From a virus: a stretch of DNA of 22,009 bases. The notes beneath the pieces were generated by a model. It made no database searches. It was not told the origin of the DNA and worked only from the letters and a program-made list of their open reading frames with translations. The stretch's first letter is position 1. Each line of letters begins with the position of its first letter. Made by a program: the position numbers and the translations under genes. Shown here piece after piece: positions 4,244 to 15,820 of the stretch. The stretch spans positions 1-22,009 of IMG/VR virus record IMGVR_UViG_3300044729_004302; one strand, 5' to 3'.

Positions 4244-5317
4244 TTACCACTCGCAGTTGGCGTAGGTGGCTCTCTCAGCCAACACTAAGAGGCGATCGCT
4301 TGTGTCTTGGAGCTGGCGCTTGATGGACTGCATGGCGTCTCTGGCATCACGCACCAAGCGCACGTGCTTGCAGTGTCCATGGGCCTTGTGGCCTGGACAC
4401 GTGCAGGTGCCCTCGTAGGCGCGCACTGTGTGTAGCCCGGTGCTGCCATTGATCTTGTGGATACCAAGGGCGCTGTTGCCACCCACAGAGGCGTACACTG
4501 CGCTGTAGGCCTCACGGAGCTCGTCGATCTTGGCGTTGAGTTTGGCGGCCTTGGTCTGACGTCGCTTGTCGAGAGACATGGCGATCTTATCTTGGAGGGT
4601 GCGCAGCAGCTCTGGATCCTGTGCGAGAGTGGTGCACCATGGATAGTGAGCGATCTCTGTGGCCAAACTCTTGGTGCGTCGGCAGCAGTCGCTGCAGCGC
4701 ACTGTGAGTCGGTAGAGCTCCAAGGTCTGTGCAGGTGCTGCGTCGGAGACAGTCTCTGTGGCAGTCTCGATAGCAGCCTCGGAGGCGGCGATCTCTGCAG
4801 CCTCTGCGGTCTCGGCTGCCTCTACCTCTGCCTCTGCAGCTGCGAGCTCTGCCTCGCTTGGATCTGCATCGTTGAGCATGTCGATCCAGTCTTGGTCACA
4901 GCAATGACGGTGAGATACTCCGTAGGTCTTGCGGCTCTGACGACGTGCAGGCTTGGCCTCAACAACCTCAAGTGCGTCTGCGGCAAAGACATCAACCTCA
5001 ACAACCTCAGCCTTGGGAGCCTCAACAACCTCAGCCTTGGGAGCCTCAACAACCTCAGCCTTGGGAGCCTCTGGCAGTGGGATCACAACACCAGTCTTGC
5101 GCTCCCACTGTGCGTTGTCGCGGACCCAGCCCATGCCGTCTGCCTTGGTGTAGCAGCAGCCGTCGTCATGGCGATTTTGCCACTTGGTGCCACCAGTGCG
5201 GCTGTCAACAACTTGCTCGGCAAGGCCGTTGCCGCGGCGGACAGTGCAGCCACAGCGATAGCAGCGGCCCTCGAACTTGTTGATGATTGTGCGGATGATG
5301 TTGGTCTCGGTTGTCAT
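4244..5317 (-). CDS. SWIM-type zinc-finger protein with internal repeats
   Basis: A 357-residue protein starting at 5317, behind AGAGGAG. Domains in order: an N-terminal zinc ribbon (C19-x2-C22, with H50/C54 as likely partners); a flexible region with three identical copies of APKAEVVE (residues 84-107); a long Ala/Glu-rich stretch (about 155-195); a C208-x2-C211-x12-H224-x3-C228 site; and a SWIM zinc finger C305-x-C307-x8-C316-x-H318. SWIM fingers in other proteins bind DNA or partner proteins. It is the first gene behind the strong leftward promoter at 5360-5388, so it is probably highly expressed. It could be an abundant DNA-associated early protein; no exact family is recognised. Confidence 0.65.
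   Translation of the reverse strand: MTTETNIIRTIINKFEGRCYRCGCTVRRGNGLAEQVVDSRTGGTKWQNRHDDGCCYTKADGMGWVRDNAQWERKTGVVIPLPEAPKAEVVEAPKAEVVEAPKAEVVEVDVFAADALEVVEAKPARRQSRKTYGVSHRHCCDQDWIDMLNDADPSEAELAAAEAEVEAAETAEAAEIAASEAAIETATETVSDAAPAQTLELYRLTVRCSDCCRRTKSLATEIAHYPWCTTLAQDPELLRTLQDKIAMSLDKRRQTKAAKLNAKIDELREAYSAVYASVGGNSALGIHKINGSTGLHTVRAYEGTCTCPGHKAHGHCKHVRLVRDARDAMQSIKRQLQDTSDRLLVLAERATYANCEW
4998..5069. repeat. Three perfect 24-bp tandem repeats
   Basis: Three uninterrupted identical 24-bp units (4998-5021, 5022-5045, 5046-5069) encode the repeated APKAEVVE peptide of the SWIM protein. Identity at the DNA level, including synonymous positions, points to recent expansion by slippage or recombination. 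There are no spacers, so this is not a CRISPR array. Confidence 0.9.
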
Positions 5318-5359
5318 GTTGTCTCCTCTGCAGCCGTCTCGTCGCTGCGTCATGAGATA

Positions 5360-5453: not shown

Positions 5454-6266
5454 TCAGGCGTGTCGCGAGACGGTGGGGATGATCTTGGTGAGAGAGGAGT
5501 AGAGGCTGGGGTAGTAGTGTCGGAGCCAAGCGACGGCTCCTCGGTGTGCGTGGGAGGTGCTGACCCACCACGACTTGCGGATGCGAGAGGGATCGTCGCT
5601 GTCCATGAGTGCGCAGCACTTGTACATGGGCAGCAGCTCGATGTCTCTTGCTGCGCAGTAGGCATAGACGTCGATGCCCTGCCAGTCACCAAGCGGCGTG
5701 CAGACCCACTGCCCCGCTTTTTTGCGGTACAGCTTGCCGTGGGTAGCGCGGTTTTTGGCGCGATGCTTGCTCTCGCCAGCGCGCAGCCCGAGAAATGCCC
5801 CGTCGTACTGCTCGCTAAACGCCTCCACGACCCCATAAAAGCAGGCTTTGGAGAGGCCCGCGGCTCGGCTGTGCATGTTGGTGTTGCCGTGCAGCTCTTC
5901 AGCATGCTCTCGGAGCCACTGCTGCGGAGACACTGGCGGGCGCAGGATGTGCAGATCCCACCCATACTGCGCAGCCTGCTGCACCAAGTGCGCCTCCTCG
6001 CCCGGGAAATCGAGGTCATCTTTCTCGCTACCCACGGGCAGGGATAGGCCCATCTCCGTGCACACGAGGTGCGTCATGGCGGTAGAGTCTTTGCCGCCCG
6101 ACGACATCACGCACCACCGAGGAGCTGCTGCCAGTGCCTGCTCGATGTCGCGCTTGGCCATCTCAATACGCCTCTTGTGCGCAATGGTACGCGACCAAGC
6201 AAGGGCCTCAGCCATCCACTCCCCCCAACGACGGAGATCCTCTGGTCGCAAAATCGGCTCTACCAT
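5454..6266 (-). CDS. CysH-like PP-loop protein of the type IV-B module
   Basis: A 270-residue member of the PAPS-reductase/CysH PP-loop family. It has the ATP-binding loop SSGGKDSTA at residues 55-63, a LGLRAGES motif at 159-166, a TPLGDWQGIDVYAY segment typical of the C-terminal half (about 190-203), and a Cys pair at 217-218. Relatives in sulfur metabolism reduce activated sulfate, and DndC-type relatives act in DNA phosphorothioation. CysH-like proteins of unknown role accompany type IV-B CRISPR-Cas loci. It overlaps the end of csf3 by seven bases with GGAG five bases before the start, and it is the last gene of the leftward cas operon. Enzymatic substrate not deducible; involvement in the complex is inferred from linkage. 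Confidence 0.85.
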   Translation of the reverse strand: MVEPILRPEDLRRWGEWMAEALAWSRTIAHKRRIEMAKRDIEQALAAAPRWCVMSSGGKDSTAMTHLVCTEMGLSLPVGSEKDDLDFPGEEAHLVQQAAQYGWDLHILRPPVSPQQWLREHAEELHGNTNMHSRAAGLSKACFYGVVEAFSEQYDGAFLGLRAGESKHRAKNRATHGKLYRKKAGQWVCTPLGDWQGIDVYAYCAARDIELLPMYKCCALMDSDDPSRIRKSWWVSTSHAHRGAVAWLRHYYPSLYSSLTKIIPTVSRHA

Positions 6267-6919
6267 TGTGGCTCCGGTAGGGCCACCCAGTCGCGCCCCT
6301 GCTGCATCCAGTACGGATAGGTTAATCTGCCATCAGCAATGTATGCATCCTCGGCAAGGCCTGGCGTGTCAGTGGGCAGCGGCCGCAGTGGGTAGCCCCC
6401 TCGCAGCACAGGATAGCCTGCCCACGTCTCGCACTGCTGCACAGTCCACTCTGCCACCTCGCCCTTGCCGACGGCAGCACGCTTGCCTAGATGCGTAACC
6501 ATGCGCAGCAGCCGCTCGATCTCGTCTGCATCACCAACACACCACCACGTCAGCAGATCCCCCTTGACCCAGCCTGTCGCAATGGGCAAGCGCCATGGCT
6601 TGCTGAGCCCTGCGCTTGTCTCGATGCGTACCTTGCTGCTCCCAAACAGCTGTGCTGCAGCTACTGGGGACGGGCGATTGACCCAAGTGCTCTCTCTCTC
6701 CTCCCACTCGTACTCGGCTGCGGAGGCTAGGTGGTACCGCCCACACTCGCTTTTGGCCACAGGGATGACGATCTCTGTGGGCTGCAGTGTCGCGACAAAT
6801 CCTGCGTCTGCGCCCTGCTCTCTGGCCACCACAGAGGCCAAGAGCGAGTCGAGCATCAGGGGCAGGCCAGGCAGGGAGATCGCTGTCTTGATGCGTGCTT
6901 GCACGCGTAGCGGGGTCAT
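6260..6919 (-). CDS. csf3: Csf3, Cas5-like subunit of type IV complex
   Basis: A 219-residue RAMP-fold protein. Its N-terminus reads as the first RAMP strand followed by a helix (LRVQARIKTAISL...LMLDSLLASVVA). The middle carries VIPVAKSE, and a glycine-rich loop LGKRAAVGKGEV sits at 144-155, followed by an EWTV strand. These are the features of Csf3, which takes the Cas5 place and caps the guide-RNA 5' end in type IV complexes. The start overlaps the csf2 stop by four bases. Length is in the usual range. The partners are Csf2, Csf1 and the Cas11-like protein from the same operon. Confidence 0.82.
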   Translation of the reverse strand: MTPLRVQARIKTAISLPGLPLMLDSLLASVVAREQGADAGFVATLQPTEIVIPVAKSECGRYHLASAAEYEWEERESTWVNRPSPVAAAQLFGSSKVRIETSAGLSKPWRLPIATGWVKGDLLTWWCVGDADEIERLLRMVTHLGKRAAVGKGEVAEWTVQQCETWAGYPVLRGGYPLRPLPTDTPGLAEDAYIADGRLTYPYWMQQGRDWVALPEPQW

Positions 6920-7911
6920 GCGTTGACGTCCCGTAAAAATGCCTTGATCTCTGCAGCCTGCTCTTTGACGTGGCGGAAAAATACGCTACCTACCTCGCCT
7001 CTCACCACCATGTCACCAGGCATCGGCACAGCCTCTTGGCGGGCGATCTCCCATCGGTAGTCAAAAGCCTTGAGACAGCGCAGGCCCCCGTGCCCAGAGC
7101 CCCGCTTGCCACCCACGCTGGCGTTGGCGAGGAAGGTCGCGATCATGACATTGAGGGTATCCTCATCGAGCTCGGTCTGCACGAGCGCCGAGACCTGCCA
7201 AAAGAAGAGTGATCCCTGCACGATGCGCTCAAAACTGCGTGGCATCATGGTGCTCTTGCTGTCGTCGCGGAGCTTGGCGTCGTCGATCTCGTGCGCCGTC
7301 TCCGATTTTTTGAGGCGCCCCTCGAGCTGCTTGCGCGAGTCGTCAGACAGCAAGAGCCTCTTGGCGGGGTCTAGTGTCGGGTCCATGCGCACTCTCTGTG
7401 TCTCCTCGACGTAGGCTCGGTGCGTCTCGATCTGCTGTCCCTCCTCACGCAGCCAGCCCATCACCTCGGGGGGCAGGTAGTGCAGAGTCTCCTCGCAGAT
7501 GAGCTGCGCCTGTGAGACGGAGAGCTTGCCTGGTACGCACCGATTGCCCACGCAGCCACCCAAGAGGGAGAGCTGCGGGAAGACCTTGACCATGCGGTGA
7601 TAGTCGTCGATCTTGACCACGTCTCCACCTGTGCCTCTGCCAGTCAGCATGCCGCCGGCAAAGAGCAGGCGCAGCGCGCCCTCGGAGAGATCAGCTCCGA
7701 TCTCGGCTGCATGGATGTACGAGAGGGCGATGGCCTCTCGCAGCTGATGGCGCATGGTGTCGCCAGTGAGGTAGGGGATCCGCTTAAATGTGCCGTCCTT
7801 CATCCGCACTTTGGATCGCTGTATGAGAGAGACATTGCCTTGGGTCTCGCTGTGGTGTGCTATGGGCTCGCGAGCCTCGAGCACAAAGCCGTACTTGATC
7901 TGCTTCATCAT
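6916..7911 (-). CDS. csf2: Csf2, Cas7-like backbone subunit
   Basis: A 331-residue protein with hallmarks of Csf2: an N-terminal RAMP strand with a conserved loop (GFVLEAREPIAHHSETQGN, residues 8-26), IPYLTGDTMRHQLRE at 45-59, LFAGGMLTGRGTGGD at about 83-97, and a late glycine-rich GGKRGSGHGGL at 267-277. Csf2 polymerises along guide RNA to form the filament of type IV effector complexes. Two ATGs (7911 and 7908) are possible; 7911 overlaps the cas11-like stop by four bases. This is the strongest single marker for a type IV CRISPR-Cas locus here. Confidence 0.88.
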   Translation of the reverse strand: MMKQIKYGFVLEAREPIAHHSETQGNVSLIQRSKVRMKDGTFKRIPYLTGDTMRHQLREAIALSYIHAAEIGADLSEGALRLLFAGGMLTGRGTGGDVVKIDDYHRMVKVFPQLSLLGGCVGNRCVPGKLSVSQAQLICEETLHYLPPEVMGWLREEGQQIETHRAYVEETQRVRMDPTLDPAKRLLLSDDSRKQLEGRLKKSETAHEIDDAKLRDDSKSTMMPRSFERIVQGSLFFWQVSALVQTELDEDTLNVMIATFLANASVGGKRGSGHGGLRCLKAFDYRWEIARQEAVPMPGDMVVRGEVGSVFFRHVKEQAAEIKAFLRDVNA

Positions 7912-8267
7912 CCTTTTACGATCACCTTTCTCTCGTCTGCCTCAGCACGTAGTGTCGCCATCAAAAAACCATTCTCGCGGTCTACCATCTCCAGCCACTC
8001 ATCGACGTCTCTTTGGCTTGCTAGGTGGCTCTGCAAGACCAAGGCTGCCCCAGAGACCCAGCTGTCCGGTGTGTCGATCTGCAGTGTGCGACACATCGAT
8101 GTCAGCCACTCCTCGAGCCCCGCGGATGTCCGTGCTGCTGCTCGGCTGCGGGTCGCTAGCTGCTCCCAGTGTTTGAGTGGGCTGCAGCTCGGGGTCTTGA
8201 GATACTGCGCTCTCAGGGCTCCGAGCAGCTTGATCGTCGCCTGTCTTTTTGCCTCTACTTTTTCCAT
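7908..8267 (-). CDS. cas11: Cas11-like small subunit
   Basis: A 119-residue, mostly helical protein starting MEKVEAKRQATIKLLGAL. Position between csf1 and csf2, size and helical character fit the small subunit Cas11 of type IV-B. The start at 8267 is supported by AAAAGGAGG nine bases upstream; that site lies inside the csf1 reading frame. Longer in-frame forms exist but extend deeper into csf1 without a better ribosome binding site. It overlaps csf1 by 269 bases in a different frame and csf2 by four bases. Cas11 proteins are poorly conserved, so the call leans on context. Confidence 0.68.
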   Translation of the reverse strand: MEKVEAKRQATIKLLGALRAQYLKTPSCSPLKHWEQLATRSRAAARTSAGLEEWLTSMCRTLQIDTPDSWVSGAALVLQSHLASQRDVDEWLEMVDRENGFLMATLRAEADERKVIVKG

Positions 8268-9021
8268 CCTTTTTGGCCTCCTTTTCCGCGGCCATACGTG
8301 CCGCGACCCTCTCCTCATCACGCTGCGCCAGCCAGATGGCAAGAGCAAAAAACGACCCGCCTCTCTGGCTTGACCATCTAGCCTCAAACTGCCTGATTGC
8401 CTCTCTGCATCGCAGGATGCTGCCTGCCTGATAGTCTCCCGTCTGTATCTCCTCCTTGGTTGCGCCTGCTGTCAGCGTCTCTGTCATGTCATCAACCATT
8501 GACCAGTCTCCGAGGCGCACGACTGTATCGTCAAAGAGCACGGTGCCATTGGTTGTGCGGCACACTGGCGCCCATGGGATCACGTGCTTTTGCCCGGTAT
8601 CAGCGACAGCACACCACCACATGCCTTGCTTTGGCTTGCGCAGCCAAGCAAGCAACACAGGCTTGTCTCCCTTGCTTGCGTTGATGTACTCAACACTGCC
8701 GTCAGGTCTCTGCCACCACCCATGGCTATAGTTGCGATAGTTGCCGCCATAGCTCTTGCCCTCCTTGGGTGGTCTACCAAGCACTGGAGAGACTCGGCTG
8801 CAGATGTGTACGCAGGGCTCACAGACCCACTGTGACTGCGGAGACCTGACCCTGTTTTGCGACGTAAAATTGCCTGGCATCCACTTGGCTACCAAGATGC
8901 CATTGCCCTGCCATTGACCGCCGCAGACCCAGCAGGCAAAGGGATCGGCAATCTTGCTGCACTCTGCCTGACTAGGGCTGCCAAGCGCTGTCTGCCACAG
9001 CAGTTGTGTCGCACTATGCAT
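7999..9021 (-). CDS. csf1: Csf1, zinc-binding Cas8-like subunit
   Basis: A 340-residue protein with a Csf1-type zinc finger: C30-x2-C33 and C67-x2-C70 around a KWMPGNFTSQNRVRSPQS segment. A core rich in Trp, Tyr and Gly follows. Csf1 is the Cas8-like subunit of type IV complexes. The start at 9021 overlaps the cas6-like stop by eight bases and follows GAGGGAG; a longer upstream form would overlap that gene more. The conserved part ends near residue 250. The remaining ~89 residues are Ser/Pro/Asp-rich, look disordered and overprint cas11. A stop in the -1 frame at 8257-8255 falls just inside the cas11 start, so a frameshift, real or sequencing-derived, would give a more usual ~253-residue Csf1. 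Confidence 0.82.
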   Translation of the reverse strand: MHSATQLLWQTALGSPSQAECSKIADPFACWVCGGQWQGNGILVAKWMPGNFTSQNRVRSPQSQWVCEPCVHICSRVSPVLGRPPKEGKSYGGNYRNYSHGWWQRPDGSVEYINASKGDKPVLLAWLRKPKQGMWWCAVADTGQKHVIPWAPVCRTTNGTVLFDDTVVRLGDWSMVDDMTETLTAGATKEEIQTGDYQAGSILRCREAIRQFEARWSSQRGGSFFALAIWLAQRDEERVAARMAAEKEAKKDGKSRGKKTGDDQAARSPESAVSQDPELQPTQTLGAASDPQPSSSTDIRGARGVADIDVSHTADRHTGQLGLWGSLGLAEPPSKPKRRR

Positions 9022-9685
9022 GCTCCCTCTCGATCTTGATGCGGCCAAAGCCATAGGCTCTGAGGCCTCCGATGCCGACGAGCTCTGCGCAGCGCAGCAC
9101 CCAAAGCGCCATCGGAGAGCAGTCAAGCACCATGCCCCCTACCCACCCGATGACTGCTCCTCGCTCTGCAGTGCCTCTCGAGACGTGACCTCCTATCACA
9201 GTGCGAGTGCCGATGACTGCTGACGAGACCATCTCAAGACCGCCCATGCGCTCACAGTCTACCCCAAGACCTAGGCCATCAGACACGCGCTGGATGGCTC
9301 TGGTCATGTGCCCGAGGTCTGGTGCGACGCAGCTGCGAGTGTGGTCTTTGGCTGTCATCACAACGGGTGTCAGAGTGCTCAGCACGACGCGGCCTCTTGC
9401 TGCGGAGATCGGCGGCAGCTCTAGCTCTCTGATGCCCACGGGCGAGAGACTCACTGGGCGGCCATTGGCGAGCACTGGCCACGAGGCTCTGTCTGCCATC
9501 CACACAGGGCGGGCGCCCTGTATGATGACGTGCCAGTCTCCGTCGTGATGATGCAGCGCAAAGAGGGGGATCTGCGAGGTGTGATCTTGGCCGTGCAGTG
9601 TCGAGATGATGCCGTGCATCATGGTCGCGTCACGGTGCCATGGGTGGGTGAGTCTGGGGGTGATCTTGATGCGGGCTTGCCACAT
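9014..9685 (-). CDS. Cas6-like RAMP protein, possible guide-RNA nuclease
   Basis: A 223-residue protein with RAMP features. It opens with strand ARIKITPRL and a His-rich loop (H14, H17, H24, H31). A C-terminal glycine-rich motif GIGGLRAYGFGRI at 204-216, followed by a basic strand, is typical of Cas6 and Csf5. Cas6 enzymes cut CRISPR repeats to release guide RNAs, often with a histidine. The start at 9685 (AGGAG five bases upstream) is preferred over 9718, which overlaps the upstream stop by four bases but lacks a ribosome binding site and adds 11 residues before the first strand. It directly precedes csf1. Type IV-B loci normally lack cas6, so it is unusual. It could instead be another RAMP subunit without cleavage activity. 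Confidence 0.65.
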   Translation of the reverse strand: MWQARIKITPRLTHPWHRDATMMHGIISTLHGQDHTSQIPLFALHHHDGDWHVIIQGARPVWMADRASWPVLANGRPVSLSPVGIRELELPPISAARGRVVLSTLTPVVMTAKDHTRSCVAPDLGHMTRAIQRVSDGLGLGVDCERMGGLEMVSSAVIGTRTVIGGHVSRGTAERGAVIGWVGGMVLDCSPMALWVLRCAELVGIGGLRAYGFGRIKIEREHA

Positions 9686-9714: not shown

Positions 9715-10116
9715 TCATGCTTTGGAGAGGGAATCAATCCTCGGGGTCATCTTTTTTATATCCTCGATGACAGCGGGGGGAGCGGGCCTCGTGCCCATCA
9801 CATAGTGCTGCAGTGTCGCCTGAGGCAGACAGAGCAGCTTGGCCAGCCCTCGCAGGGAGAGGCCAAGCTGACCTTGCACCAGGGAGATCGTGCGCACCTG
9901 CTCGATGATGTGTGCTGCAGGGCGAGGCTCTCTCGACCTCACCTCGGTCTGCACCCACTGGGCTATCATGGGGAGATCGCACACCTTGACCCACCACCCC
10001 TTGGATGGCGGCTCTTTGTGCGCTGGGAGCTCCCCGGAGAGCACGCCCCTGTAGAGCACATGGTAGGGCGTGCGGAGCTTGTGGGCGGCTTTGGTGAGGC
10101 GGAGAGAGTCACTCAT
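9715..10116 (-). CDS. Protein with two possible DNA-binding segments
   Basis: A 133-residue basic protein. Residues 1-55 resemble a MerR/excisionase-type winged HTH (LRLTKAAHKLRTPYHVLYRG, then a Trp-rich strand). Residues about 84-120 form a Cro/CI-type HTH (LSLRGLAKLLCLPQATLQHY). The pairing suggests a sequence-specific regulator, perhaps of its own operon from the divergent region. No clear ribosome binding site precedes the start at 10116, seven bases from the upstream stop. It lies between the ssDNA-binding-like gene and cas6-like, so it is co-transcribed with the cas genes. An accessory role in the complex cannot be excluded. Confidence 0.6.
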   Translation of the reverse strand: MSDSLRLTKAAHKLRTPYHVLYRGVLSGELPAHKEPPSKGWWVKVCDLPMIAQWVQTEVRSREPRPAAHIIEQVRTISLVQGQLGLSLRGLAKLLCLPQATLQHYVMGTRPAPPAVIEDIKKMTPRIDSLSKA

Positions 10117-10122
10117 GGTGGG

Positions 10123-10728
10123 CTAAAATGGGATCTCGTCAGGCTCTGCGGAGGGCACAAAGCCCTTGTCTTGCGCCTTGATGCCAACAGCTGCAGTGGC
10201 TGCACGAGCTGCACCAGAGGGCGCAGCAAAGGCGCCCTTGACACGCTCTGTCATGGCTGCGCCCTGCTGCATGGCGATGCGCTCCATCAGGCGGCCCTTG
10301 GTCGCCTCGGCGTCGTAAGAGCCTGTGGCCGTGACCTTTTTCTTCGGCTTGAGGATCTTGTCGACAGAGGCGTACGACATGCCCTCGCGCTCAAAGTGGG
10401 TGACTAGGAGCTGGCAGCACTTGCCTACGAGCTGCTCGAGGTCAAAGCCTCGCATCTCCTCTGGAGACAGCTCGACTCCGCCACGCCATGCCTTGAGGTC
10501 CTGGGCAAGCTTGGCCTTCTCATGCAAACTGGCTGCGTACCTCTTGCTGAGGTGGTACACCATGCCCTCATCACTGCGCACCTCCCACAGGATCTGCAGC
10601 TGGTGCTTGTCGCCATAGGCTGTTGGCACTGTACCAAGGTCAATGACATCGACGCAGATGGCGTCGTAGAGCCCCTCGGGGCATGGGGTGCGGTTGCTGC
10701 TGCTCTCTCGTCTCAAAATAAGTGGCAT
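10123..10728 (-). CDS. Phage ssDNA-binding-like protein
   Basis: A 201-residue protein starting at 10728 behind GAGG. The N-terminal two thirds carry a pattern common in phage replication-operon proteins of the ssDNA-binding/DUF669 type: GLYDAICVDVIDLG, a WEV strand, YHLSKRYAASLHEKAKLAQD, then GFDLEQLVGK and YASVDKILKP. An Ala/Gly-rich linker leads to the C-terminal tip AEPDEIPF, which closely matches the acidic DDDIPF tail by which bacterial SSB recruits replication and repair proteins. It is the first gene of the leftward operon and lies opposite the replication genes. Role inferred: coating ssDNA during phage replication. Confidence 0.65.
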   Translation of the reverse strand: MPLILRRESSSNRTPCPEGLYDAICVDVIDLGTVPTAYGDKHQLQILWEVRSDEGMVYHLSKRYAASLHEKAKLAQDLKAWRGGVELSPEEMRGFDLEQLVGKCCQLLVTHFEREGMSYASVDKILKPKKKVTATGSYDAEATKGRLMERIAMQQGAAMTERVKGAFAAPSGAARAATAAVGIKAQDKGFVPSAEPDEIPF

Positions 10729-10846
10729 GGATACATCCTCTCTGCTGCCGTCTCTGGGCAGTGGAGTAGGGCTATCACACTTGTGAGGGGATTGCAATAG
10801 CAAAAATAATTTTGACAATTGATTGATGATCAGGTAGGACAAAAAA
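10729..10846. promoter_or_regulatory. Divergent promoter region with palindrome
   Basis: This gap separates the leftward cas/SSB operon from the rightward replication operon. It holds TCACA-CT-TGTGA (10775-10786), an operator-like inverted repeat. An AT-rich stretch (10799-10830) includes a perfect rightward -35 TTGACA at 10812-10817, but the base pairs 17 further on read TAGGAC, a poor -10. No convincing leftward -35/-10 pair was found, so activator dependence or a phage-specific promoter is possible. The two-segment DNA-binding protein encoded nearby is a candidate regulator. Confidence 0.45.
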
Positions 10847-11418: not shown

Positions 11419-12020
11419 CCAAGCCAAGGTACCGCTCCGCACAGCCAGACGACACATACTGCTACACTGCATGGGTGAGATACGAGAGCAAGATCCCTCT
11501 GGAGATGCTGCTCGACTCACCCTTGTGTTTTATCGACACCGAGACGACAGGGCTTGGTCACGATGACCGCATCATCGAGATCGCACTCTGTCGGGTCGAG
11601 AGGGGATCTCTCGATAGGTGGATGACGTCTCTGGTCGACCCGGTGTGGGCAGTGCTGTCTCCCAAGGCCAGCGAGGTATCAGGCATCACCAAAGACATGC
11701 TTGCAGAGGCTCCACTCTTTGAGAGCCTCGCAGAGGAGATCGCTGCCATGTGCTCCGGAGCCTACATGGTGGCGCACAACGCAGCATTTGACCGTCGCAT
11801 GCTAGAGGCCAGCTTTGCCGATGTCGGCATGCAACTGCAGCCCAAGGGTTGGGTCTGCACCCAGCAGCTCTCCAGAGAGCATGTCACGGGTCTCAAGTCG
11901 TACAGCCTGCAGTCGCTCGTCTCGAGCCTCTGCCTACCACAGCATACAGCTCACAGAGCAGAGGGTGATGTGCGTACCCTTATGGCTCTGTGGGCACACA
12001 TCACACGAGGATATAGATGA
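11415..12020 (+). CDS. DnaQ-like 3'-5' exonuclease
   Basis: A 201-residue DEDDh exonuclease of the DNA polymerase III epsilon type. ExoI is FIDTETTGLG with D41 and E43; ExoII is AHNAAFDRRML with D126; ExoIII is HRAEGD with H180 and D185. All catalytic residues are present. The first ~35 residues precede the domain and are not conserved in an obvious way. It sits between the resolvase and the primase-helicase with four-base overlaps at both ends. Likely role is proofreading, end trimming or nucleotide scavenging during phage replication. Confidence 0.85.
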   Translation: MTKPRYRSAQPDDTYCYTAWVRYESKIPLEMLLDSPLCFIDTETTGLGHDDRIIEIALCRVERGSLDRWMTSLVDPVWAVLSPKASEVSGITKDMLAEAPLFESLAEEIAAMCSGAYMVAHNAAFDRRMLEASFADVGMQLQPKGWVCTQQLSREHVTGLKSYSLQSLVSSLCLPQHTAHRAEGDVRTLMALWAHITRGYR

Positions 12021-15057: not shown

Positions 15058-15456
15058 ATGGACATCATACAGACGATCATGGATGTGCTGCAGTATGTGG
15101 CGATGACAGACACAGTGAGGCCCCCCAAGGGCGTCAGGGAGGCAGCGGCTCTTGGGCTGCGGCTTCGTGAGAGACAGCCTCCGAGCAATCGGGCAGGCAC
15201 TCCCGTAGGCCTTGCCAGAGCGCGTGACCTTGCCAATGGGCGGCCAGTGTCGTACGCCACCATGAAGCGAATGAAAGCCTATTTCGACCGCCATGAGGTC
15301 GACAAGCAGGCTAGTGGATGGCGCCCTGGTGAGGAGGGCTACCCGAGCAAAGGGTACCAAGCATGGCTCTTGTGGGGTGGCGACGAGGGGCAGAGATGGG
15401 TACTCTCGGAGCTGCGCAAGGCCAAGCTCGTAGACAAGGATGGCAACACCCTATGA
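15058..15456 (+). CDS. Uncharacterised phage protein, KGYQAWLLWGGDEG motif
   Basis: A 132-residue protein. The start at 15058 is chosen for the AGGAGG site five bases upstream; an ATG at 15031 (ATGA overlap with the previous stop) would add nine residues. The second half has GLARARDLANGRPVSY, then a YFDRHEVDK and a PSKGYQAWLLWGGDEGQRW stretch. I recall this pattern from phage proteins where it appears alone or fused to head-maturation or structural proteins. The function of the motif is not established to my knowledge. Here it stands alone among replication and metabolism genes. Confidence 0.6.
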   Translation: MDIIQTIMDVLQYVAMTDTVRPPKGVREAAALGLRLRERQPPSNRAGTPVGLARARDLANGRPVSYATMKRMKAYFDRHEVDKQASGWRPGEEGYPSKGYQAWLLWGGDEGQRWVLSELRKAKLVDKDGNTL

Positions 15457-15478
15457 CAGCAGACAAGGAGAGGGTCAC

Positions 15479-15820
15479 ATGAAAATCAAGAAGAGGCTAA
15501 CGATGCTTGAGAGCATCCGCACAGAGTGGGCGTACAACGACGATGGCACCAAGACACGCTGGCATGTGCACAAAGACTTTGGCCCATGGGCAGTCAAGTT
15601 TGTACCTCGGGGCTGGATTGTGCTTGAGCACACAGAGGAACTCTACCACATCGACTGGAATAGAGCTCATGAGTCAGACTGGGTTGATCACATCTGTGGC
15701 AAGATCTGGGGACGGCCCACACGAGCCGACCTCGTGGAGGGCTTGACCTACCTGCGCCAGCTTATTGCAAAGCTCAAGGCGACTGGAGTCATAGGAGAGC
15801 ACTATGCACGACATCACTGA
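15479..15820 (+). CDS. Hypothetical phage protein
   Basis: A 113-residue protein starting at 15479 behind AAGGAG at eight bases. It is rich in Trp and His, with a beta-rich N-terminal half (TRWHVHKDFGPWAVKFVPRG) and a helical end. No cysteine pairs, signal peptide or known catalytic motif is seen, and I do not recognise the family. Its end overlaps the MazG-like gene by 17 bases. Confidence 0.55.
   Translation: MKIKKRLTMLESIRTEWAYNDDGTKTRWHVHKDFGPWAVKFVPRGWIVLEHTEELYHIDWNRAHESDWVDHICGKIWGRPTRADLVEGLTYLRQLIAKLKATGVIGEHYARHH

Follow-up and report, generated by a model that had tools for sequence, protein, structure and literature searches.

The window analysed here, 22,009 nucleotides in length, is one entire IMG/VR record (IMGVR_UViG_3300044729_004302) of the linear class, and such records are often fragments. 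PHROGs profiles identified a primase/helicase, TerL, a portal and a head protease on its plus strand between positions 12017 and 21279, with smaller ORFs interspersed, which bears out a preliminary description of the DNA as belonging to a tailed phage. On the minus strand are genes for a phage replication initiation protein of the NGO0469 family (10123-10842; NCBIfam 112.2 bits, cut-off 75) and for a small protein with a weak, below-cut-off helix-turn-helix match (9715-10116; Pfam HTH_31, 6.7e-4), the latter lying directly upstream of the cassette that is our subject. This cassette is a single leftward operon (5454-9685) whose genes are, in order, a Cas6-like gene, csf1, cas11, csf2, csf3 and a CysH-like gene, all on the minus strand. 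The same six genes are present on a second phage contig of 51,474 bp (G001), where the flanking genes match those of the window on both sides and in the same order with one exception (window 15440-15820); neither of the window genes at 9715-10842, the next two upstream of the cassette, has a counterpart there. That the cassette sits among mostly the same neighbours in G001 argues against a misassembly of the window and speaks for the joining of the block to phage genes, as originally described. Scans of genome contigs with Csf2 and Csf3 found no relative.

The order csf1-cas11-csf2-csf3-cysH was recovered by PADLOC and Pfam searches much as it had first been read. Csf1, the Cas8-like subunit of type IV (340 aa, 7999-9021), was matched by PADLOC at 8.2e-17 and Cas11 (119 aa, 7908-8267) by its typeIV_Cas11 family at 1.1e-7, the starts of both having been set against G001, whose own Cas11 matched at 6e-10. 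Csf2 (Cas7-like, 331 aa, 6916-7911) was matched at 2.1e-42, and its profile also picked up the solved IV-B Csf2, 7jhy, at 8.7e-6, while Csf3 (Cas5-like, 219 aa, 6260-6919), which is 95% identical in G001, was matched at 4e-33. On these profile matches, the three Csf proteins are members of type IV families, an assignment that the searches had the power to overturn and did not. All three fall far under the NCBIfam equivalog cut-offs (Csf1 23.9 against 140 bits, Csf2 31.6 against 130 and Csf3 72.8 against 140), so that they are relatives, but divergent ones. The small subunit expected of IV-B, Cas11, is present, as is a CysH-like PP-loop protein (270 aa, 5454-6266; Pfam PAPS_reduct 1.7e-10, 41.7 bits, cut-off 22.5), the gene of which adjoins csf3. 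Its SGGKDS loop is kept in all ten aligned rows of IV-B-associated CysH, and the catalytic cysteine, the position of which was taken from the account in PMC8175902, is missing. No cysteine was invariant across the rows of this alignment, which holds no bona fide CysH.

The first gene of the operon, at 9014-9685, is the ORF at the right edge of the interval that had been singled out, and it encodes a protein of 223 aa (or of 234 aa from an alternative, longer start at 9718) for which seven of the eight PADLOC families listed were Cas6, the best at 1.1e-5. The G001 copy is 56% identical and matched Cas6 in seven of seven families. With the Pfam CRISPR_Cas6 profiles, the window protein scored 21.5 and 18.5 bits and that of G001 22, below the gathering cut-off of 25. 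No solved structure was matched by sequence, and a profile of the protein matched the IV-D Cas6 of L019 and phage Cas6e no better than controls, the sole Cas6 that it matched being that of L044 (1.8e-4, probability 48%). AlphaFold models had pLDDT values of 42.2 and 32.9, too poor for a fold search. Across the systems collected, matches to Cas6 families were found in 7 of 15 viral records, including the window and G001, and in none of 17 plasmids (Fisher P 0.002); matches over the cut-off were found in five of the 15 and again in none of the plasmids (Fisher P 0.015). In this count, PF08798 was left out for the window, G001 and the L018 and L019 plasmids, and two matches were not tallied, a 15.7-bit PF10040 scrap in G003 and, in the L018 plasmid, a match of 11.4 bits that falls on its Csf3. 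For the same reason, the "Cas6" of T. nautili (L018) was dropped as a precedent. The preliminary description had named five genes, all of which are there, but the operon has a sixth. Its assignment to subtype IV-B holds for gene set and order; IV-B is described in PMC8175902 as having no crRNA processing enzyme, and since the operon begins with a Cas6-like gene in the window and in G001 alike, this trait is apparently lacking.

The absence of an array from the window, also noted at the outset, was upheld: scans of the window for tRNAs, Rfam families and CRISPR arrays found none, and no array, repeat or guide was found in either the window or G001, both of which may be fragments. This absence is what would be expected of IV-B. 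A search of the two contigs for a solo repeat resembling those of L037 and L046 gave best matches at 17 and 18 of 28-29 positions. Short repeat arrays do lie beside IV-B genes in two viral records, L037 and G008. A search of the phage collection for targets of the spacer in L037 and of the array in L046 gave best E values of 0.6 and 2. A 24-nt tandem repeat at 4996-5071 of the window was considered as an array and dropped, as it is inside a coding frame (4244-5353). Repeat pairs in SPI1, L025, L039, L042/L049 and L063, like that at window 4996, were read by eye as tandem or coding.

Csf1 ends in a C-terminal tail of approximately 90 residues that is encoded out of frame over cas11, the overlap being 269 nt in the window (7999-8267) and 260 nt in G001. 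The joint probability of the similarity and the open frame, given the constraint imposed by Cas11, was 0.018, a second joint estimate was 0.030, and the P values for dual coding itself were marginal (0.09 and 0.17), so that dual coding of csf1 and cas11 is supported only modestly by the sequences. Within the tail is the peptide QLGLW (codons at 8050-8064), which is QLDLF in G001 (the Csf1 tail of L043 has QLGLF), and the peptides of the window and G001 resemble the motif by which proteins bind the beta sliding clamp, suggesting that Csf1 may do likewise. The clamp-motif consensus is given as QL[S/D]LF or QxxLF in PMC12309361, and transposases are described with a C-terminal QLxLF in PMC4549789. 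QLDLF is an exact match to this consensus; QLGLW departs from it, with W replacing F and a Gly at position 3, a residue reported in PMC12309361 to weaken clamp binding in E. coli. Within the last 30 residues, a strict QLxL[FW] was found in 6 of 63 Csf1 and Cas11 tails and in none of 2512 other ORFs, the latter called mechanically, whether real or not; the length of the tail examined (25, then 30 residues) was fixed after the first motifs had been seen and the motif consensus independently. None of 20,000 shuffles gave a count as high. With G001 and L037 removed, the count is 4 of 59 tails, and the looser QxxL[FW] occurs in 7 of the 63 tails and 6 of the 2512 ORFs. The tails come from 34 fetched systems (15 viral and 19 plasmid, one of them, L019, being IV-D), Cas11 tails having been obtained for 29, and are not a census; the plasmids were hand-picked from 71 matched records plus another search. 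Excluded as repeats were L038 and L040 (on the contigs that also carry L025 and L026), L042 (no difference from L043 in 7409 bases), L005-L007, L020 and L024 (G001). The majority of IV-B tails have no clamp-like motif, and where it does occur it recurs in separate lineages, overlying different parts of cas11 in the window and in L027, and being carried on Cas11 itself in the plasmid system of Rhodovastum. Searches of the open-licence PMC literature turned up no paper seen to link type IV or Csf1 to the clamp; of two hits, one had the clamp term solely among its references and the other concerns Cas4. A parallel with archaeal PCNA motifs was dropped, as only the Csf1 of T. nautili, with MQGTLLEYL, resembles such a motif and those of L034-L036 do not.

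The carriage of IV-B by a phage or virus is not in itself new. IV-B has been described in archaeal viruses, in a paper citing type IV from plasmids, prophages and several lytic phages (PMC10848311; PMC11656645), and 12 further viral IV-B systems were found in this analysis. Among isolated tailed phages, Skermania phage SPI1 (KR011061.1, orf40-44) has csf1, cas11, csf2, csf3 and cysH, annotated as hypothetical proteins, but its Csf1 has no tail and PF08798 and PF10040 had no Cas6 match anywhere in its record. The Bathyarchaeia virus Fuxivirus likewise has a virus-borne IV-B with CysH and without adaptation genes, but it is an archaeal virus with a two-repeat mini-array, and Cas6 goes unmentioned in the available text of PMC10848311. 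Plasmid IV-B of Rhodococcus and Mycobacterium, including the Csf complex of Mycobacterium sp. JS623 (PDB 7jhy), has the same csf1-cas11-csf2-csf3 order, a CysH-like gene whose product has the SGGKDS loop, and no array in view; to this the window adds the leading Cas6-like gene, the overprinted, clamp-like Csf1 tail and a phage genome, and it forms a deep branch in the Csf2 tree. A type IV effector with a Cas6-family protein is also found in IV-D (L019) and, as described in PMC8175902, in IV-A, but these have a DinG or RecD-like helicase. No gene of the window operon has been named as such a helicase, and the operon has Cas11 and CysH instead. The window system is thus best read as a IV-B variant with an added Cas6-like gene and a clamp-like tail motif, neither of which was noticed in the preliminary description.

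Our tentatively preferred explanation, held with somewhat less than even confidence, is a phage-borne effector operon derived from IV-B that encodes a Cas6-like protein of its own and whose product is probably tethered to the clamp. Csf2, Cas11, Csf3 and Csf1 would assemble a helical RNP on RNA, like the published JS623 complex, and the Cas6-like protein would cut or hold a repeat-type hairpin RNA supplied in trans, its source being either an array of the host or a mini-array in an unseen part of the phage, such as the related phage contig L037 has. The Csf1 tail would dock in the pocket of the DnaN clamp, positioning the RNP on newly replicated DNA, where guide pairing, together with the CysH-like PP-loop protein, may block or mark the replication of a competing element; that the module serves to compete with the host or with other elements, as suggested earlier, is plausible. 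The type IV profiles, the two Cas6-like copies, the viral excess of Cas6, the L037 and G008 arrays and the tail motifs support this explanation. It is weakened by the sub-threshold Pfam score of the Cas6-like protein and its lack of a match to any solved structure, the off-consensus QLGLW, the many IV-B tails that have no such motif, the modest case for dual coding and the arrays not found in the window or G001, and by the published IV-B complex, in which, according to PMC7937560, crRNA was not enriched although a Cas6 and an array of type I-E had been provided. Doubtful, with some chance of being right, is the broader proposal that non-actinobacterial, mostly phage-borne IV-B-like systems are RNA-guided replication blockers acting between mobile elements, tethered to the replication fork by a clamp-binding C-terminal peptide of Csf1 or Cas11 (in some via cas11 overprinting) and supplied with guides by a recruited Cas6. 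The role of IV-B is poorly understood; as described in PMC7937560 and PMC11656645, most of the RNA in the solved complex was something other than crRNA, and neither a maturase nor an array is present in plasmid loci. Phage variants with Cas6, sometimes an array, and a clamp-like end offer two handles on it, namely which RNA is bound when the system has its native Cas6, and whether replicating DNA is where the RNP is located.

A sponge or counter-defence role for the same parts, in which the Cas6-like protein and a Csf filament trap host crRNAs in an inert complex and so disarm host CRISPR, with the clamp motif secondary, is in our view unlikely. Such a role for IV-B has been proposed in PMC8175902, CASTs obtain host crRNAs via Cas6 according to PMC11656645, and the lack of an array in both contigs would fit, but it leaves the clamp motif and CysH unexplained, L037 and G008 have arrays of their own, and the JS623 complex of PMC7937560 was without enrichment of the co-expressed crRNA. 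Judged about as unlikely is a IV-B complex of the ordinary sort, with non-specific coating of RNA. The first gene would then encode a RAMP protein that is inactive or unrelated, and QLGLW and the overlap would be accidents. The random RNA of the solved complex in PMC7937560, the Cas6 match under the cut-off, the marginal dual-coding values and the off-consensus motif are all consistent with it; against this, the tail motif recurs across separate lineages while being absent from the 2512 other ORFs, and Cas6 genes over the cut-off recur in related phage loci. A takeover of the host through the clamp, in which the host DnaN pocket is occupied or hijacked by the tail of Csf1 to slow host replication or favour that of the phage and RNA guidance is secondary, would suit a pocket common to polymerases and repair proteins (PMC12309361, PMC4549789) and an operon that adjoins replication genes, but is improbable, as a clamp poison needs no set of six CRISPR-type genes and the motif is present on the Rhodovastum plasmid system too.

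The window record, a complete IMG/VR entry of 22,009 bp in the class linear (a class that often means a fragment), carries minus-strand ORFs that in its ORF map span 9.7 kb to 5.45 kb leftward. In this operon PADLOC placed a Cas6-like gene (9014-9685, adjoining csf1; 1.1e-5), a type IV csf1 (8e-17), cas11 (start 8267; 1e-7), csf2 (2e-42) and csf3 (4e-33), and the final gene is cysH-like by a Pfam PAPS_reduct match. To the right, NCBIfam and PHROGs profiles revealed a phage replication initiation protein, primase/helicase, TerL, portal and head protease. The preliminary description of a type IV Csf set on a phage contig was thus upheld, with Csf1, Cas11, Csf2 and Csf3 all placed by PADLOC and phage genes adjoining; the five genes it listed, including the cysH-like one, were all there, and it had missed the sixth, the Cas6-like gene. 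Window Csf1, Csf2 and Csf3 all fall under the NCBIfam equivalog cut-offs and are therefore divergent proteins. With the Csf2 profile, the solved IV-B Csf2 (7jhy, 8.7e-6) was found, as was 11fs (4.8e-7), a chain that bears the name Cas7c.

The IV-B-like system of the window is genuine and divergent. It is a phage-borne variant that has a Cas6-like protein and, putatively, a tether to the DnaN sliding clamp. Being on a phage is by itself nothing new: the sections consulted of two papers already place IV-B on viruses (PMC10848311, PMC11656645), and those of the second, a 2024 review, describe IV-B without arrays (PMC11656645). The consulted text on a Bathyarchaeia virus IV-B system reports a mini-array and leaves Cas6 unmentioned (PMC10848311). 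In the portions of the literature searched, no description was found of a clamp link for Csf1 or type IV, or of Cas6 in phage IV-B, an earlier notice of Cas6 being possible.

All six cassette genes recur in a second phage record, G001 (IMGVR_UViG_3300033981_002534; 51,474 bp), and both cassette flanks are collinear between the two except at window 15440-15820. This makes the cassette part of the phage and corroborates its joining to phage genes, as first described. The two genes directly upstream of the window cassette have no match in G001. Because csf3 and cysH (window 5454-6919, G001 32533-34019) are far closer between the phages, at 95% and 91% identity, than the other genes (56-79%: Cas6-like 56%, Csf1 69%, Cas11 64%, Csf2 79%), the cassette looks mosaic, part of the operon apparently having been exchanged recently.

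The first gene of the window operon is best termed Cas6-like, its status as a Cas6 being unproven. Among the PADLOC families listed, 7/8 for the window gene are Cas6 (the eighth is Cmr3), as are 7/7 for the G001 copy, and Csf3 is encoded separately in the operon. Pfam scores (21.5 and 18.5 bits for the window, 22 for G001) lie below the cut-off of 25. In profile comparison, the glycine loop at the C-terminus aligned with the Cas6 of one relative, L044 (hhalign E 1.8e-4, probability 48%); matches to the Cas6 of L019, a IV-D plasmid locus (0.058), and to the phage Cas6e set (0.18) were no better than the controls (Csf3 0.064, Csf2 0.18, CysH 0.43). Sequence searches with the protein matched no solved structure, and two structure predictions were of poor quality (pLDDT 42 and 33).

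Scans of viral contigs with Csf2 alignments yielded 3, then 13 loci, that is, 13 contigs besides the window and G001, or 12 systems without L042, which is identical to L043; these 12, the window, G001 and the isolated Skermania phage SPI1 made up 15 viral records, and 19 plasmid loci, one of them IV-D, were examined alongside. PF08798 (Cas6e) was above cut-off in 3/12 viral records (G005, G007, G010), placed in each between csf2 and csf3, and PF10040 was above cut-off in G006 and G008 and below it in the window and G001. One or other family was above cut-off in 5/15 viral versus 0/17 plasmid records (Fisher P 0.015), or in 7/15 versus 0/17 when the below-cut-off matches of the window and G001 are counted too (P 0.002). 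An NCBI-annotated 'Cas6' at 6845-7588 of L018, a Thermococcus nautili plasmid IV-B locus, is by profile Csf3 (1.7e-50). In SPI1 itself (L003, 7846-11479), csf1, cas11, csf2, csf3 and cysH are annotated in GenBank as hypothetical proteins. ParB-type genes and second PAPS-reductase genes (DUF3440 or DndC-like) occur near IV-B genes on plasmids and a phage (L004, L034, L035, L041).

Two relatives have short arrays beside phage IV-B-like genes, which are candidate native guides for the family: two identical 28-nt repeats around one 35-nt spacer at L037 127-217, directly before csf1, and four ~30-nt repeats of 61-nt period in G008 (locus L046; 39813 to about 40025), where the Cas6 match lies at 40587-40919. 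The other records scanned, G001 included, gave no convincing array, and the window gave none either, as originally reported. Searched against 50,697 phage records, the spacers had no credible target.

The putative tether lies in the tail of Csf1. In the window, cas11 starts at 8267 and the csf1 frame is open to 7999, and comparison with G001 (260 nt) points to 269 nt of double coding; the Csf1 proteins of SPI1 and of the Rhodovastum plasmid lack such a tail. Its motif is QLGLW in the window and QLDLF in G001, and a separate lineage, L027 and L037, has a similar overlap with QLALF, at a different position over cas11 in L027 than in the window. L043 ends in QLGLF, L048 in QQELF, and Rhodovastum has QLELF close to the Cas11 end. 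According to the text consulted, the bacterial clamp-binding consensus is QL[S/D]LF or QxxLF, the QLDLF of Pol III alpha has a KD of about 7 nM, and a Gly in the third position makes binding weaker (PMC12309361); C-terminal QLxLF is also noted in transposases (PMC4549789, in part). The strict motif, QLxL[FW] within the final 30 residues, occurred in 6/63 tails (34 systems) versus 0/2512 other ORFs, a count that 0/20,000 shuffles reached (mean 0.022); with G001 and L037 dropped it was 4/59, and again 0/20,000 shuffles were as high. It was absent from 13 actinobacterial plasmid loci, SPI1, L025, L026, 4 archaeal plasmids and viral L039, L041 and L044-L047. When the constraint imposed by Cas11 was allowed for, the similarity of the csf1 frame and its openness had a joint P of 0.018 for window/G001 (singly 0.09, 0.17) and 0.030 for L027/L037 (singly 0.07, 0.43), modest support for dual coding of the csf1 tail over cas11. 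Csf1 of L018 (4903-5577) begins MQGTLLEYL, which we take to resemble the archaeal PCNA-binding box.

In a Csf2 tree of 25 rows, a long branch (support 100/100) unites the window with G001; its position is unsure (89/87 for grouping with archaeal plasmids and L047). Actinobacterial sequences, L027/L037, and Rhodovastum with L043-L046 and L048 form distinct groups, and the Cas6 genes and the motif therefore occur in more than one lineage.

The consulted part of a study of IV-B describes a Csf2/Cas11 filament built on RNA, mostly non-crRNA despite a supplied I-E array and Cas6 (PMC7937560). The Cas6-like protein might provide the guide selection missing from plasmid IV-B, the Csf1 tail would dock the RNP on the clamps of DNA that is being replicated, and the RNP so tethered could block or mark a competitor. 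We tentatively read the operon as a phage-borne, IV-B-derived effector with its own Cas6-like protein and a probable clamp tether, our odds being tempered by a Cas6 assignment that stays under the cut-off and by the lack of a match to known Cas6 profiles other than that of L044. It is more doubtful that non-actinobacterial, mostly phage IV-B-like systems in general are fork-tethered effectors, with a clamp peptide on Csf1 or Cas11 and Cas6-supplied guides, that block replication between mobile elements. The main rival, that the operon is a sponge for host crRNAs, we consider unlikely; in its favor, the review text consulted reports that CASTs take host crRNAs via Cas6 (PMC11656645). As for the last operon gene, CasCysH is described, in the portion consulted, as lacking the catalytic cysteine, with ATP alpha-phosphate chemistry proposed (PMC8175902), and by alignment the window protein retains SGGKDS.

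After cysH lies a 369-aa ORF (4244-5353, minus strand) with a 64% identical counterpart in G001 and a coding 24-nt tandem repeat at 4996-5071; its CxC...CxH pattern is presumably SWIM-type. Further left, minus-strand ORFs at 1-363, 330-575, 572-1081 and 1819-2529 show, by eye, repeated CxxC zinc-ribbon-like pairs.
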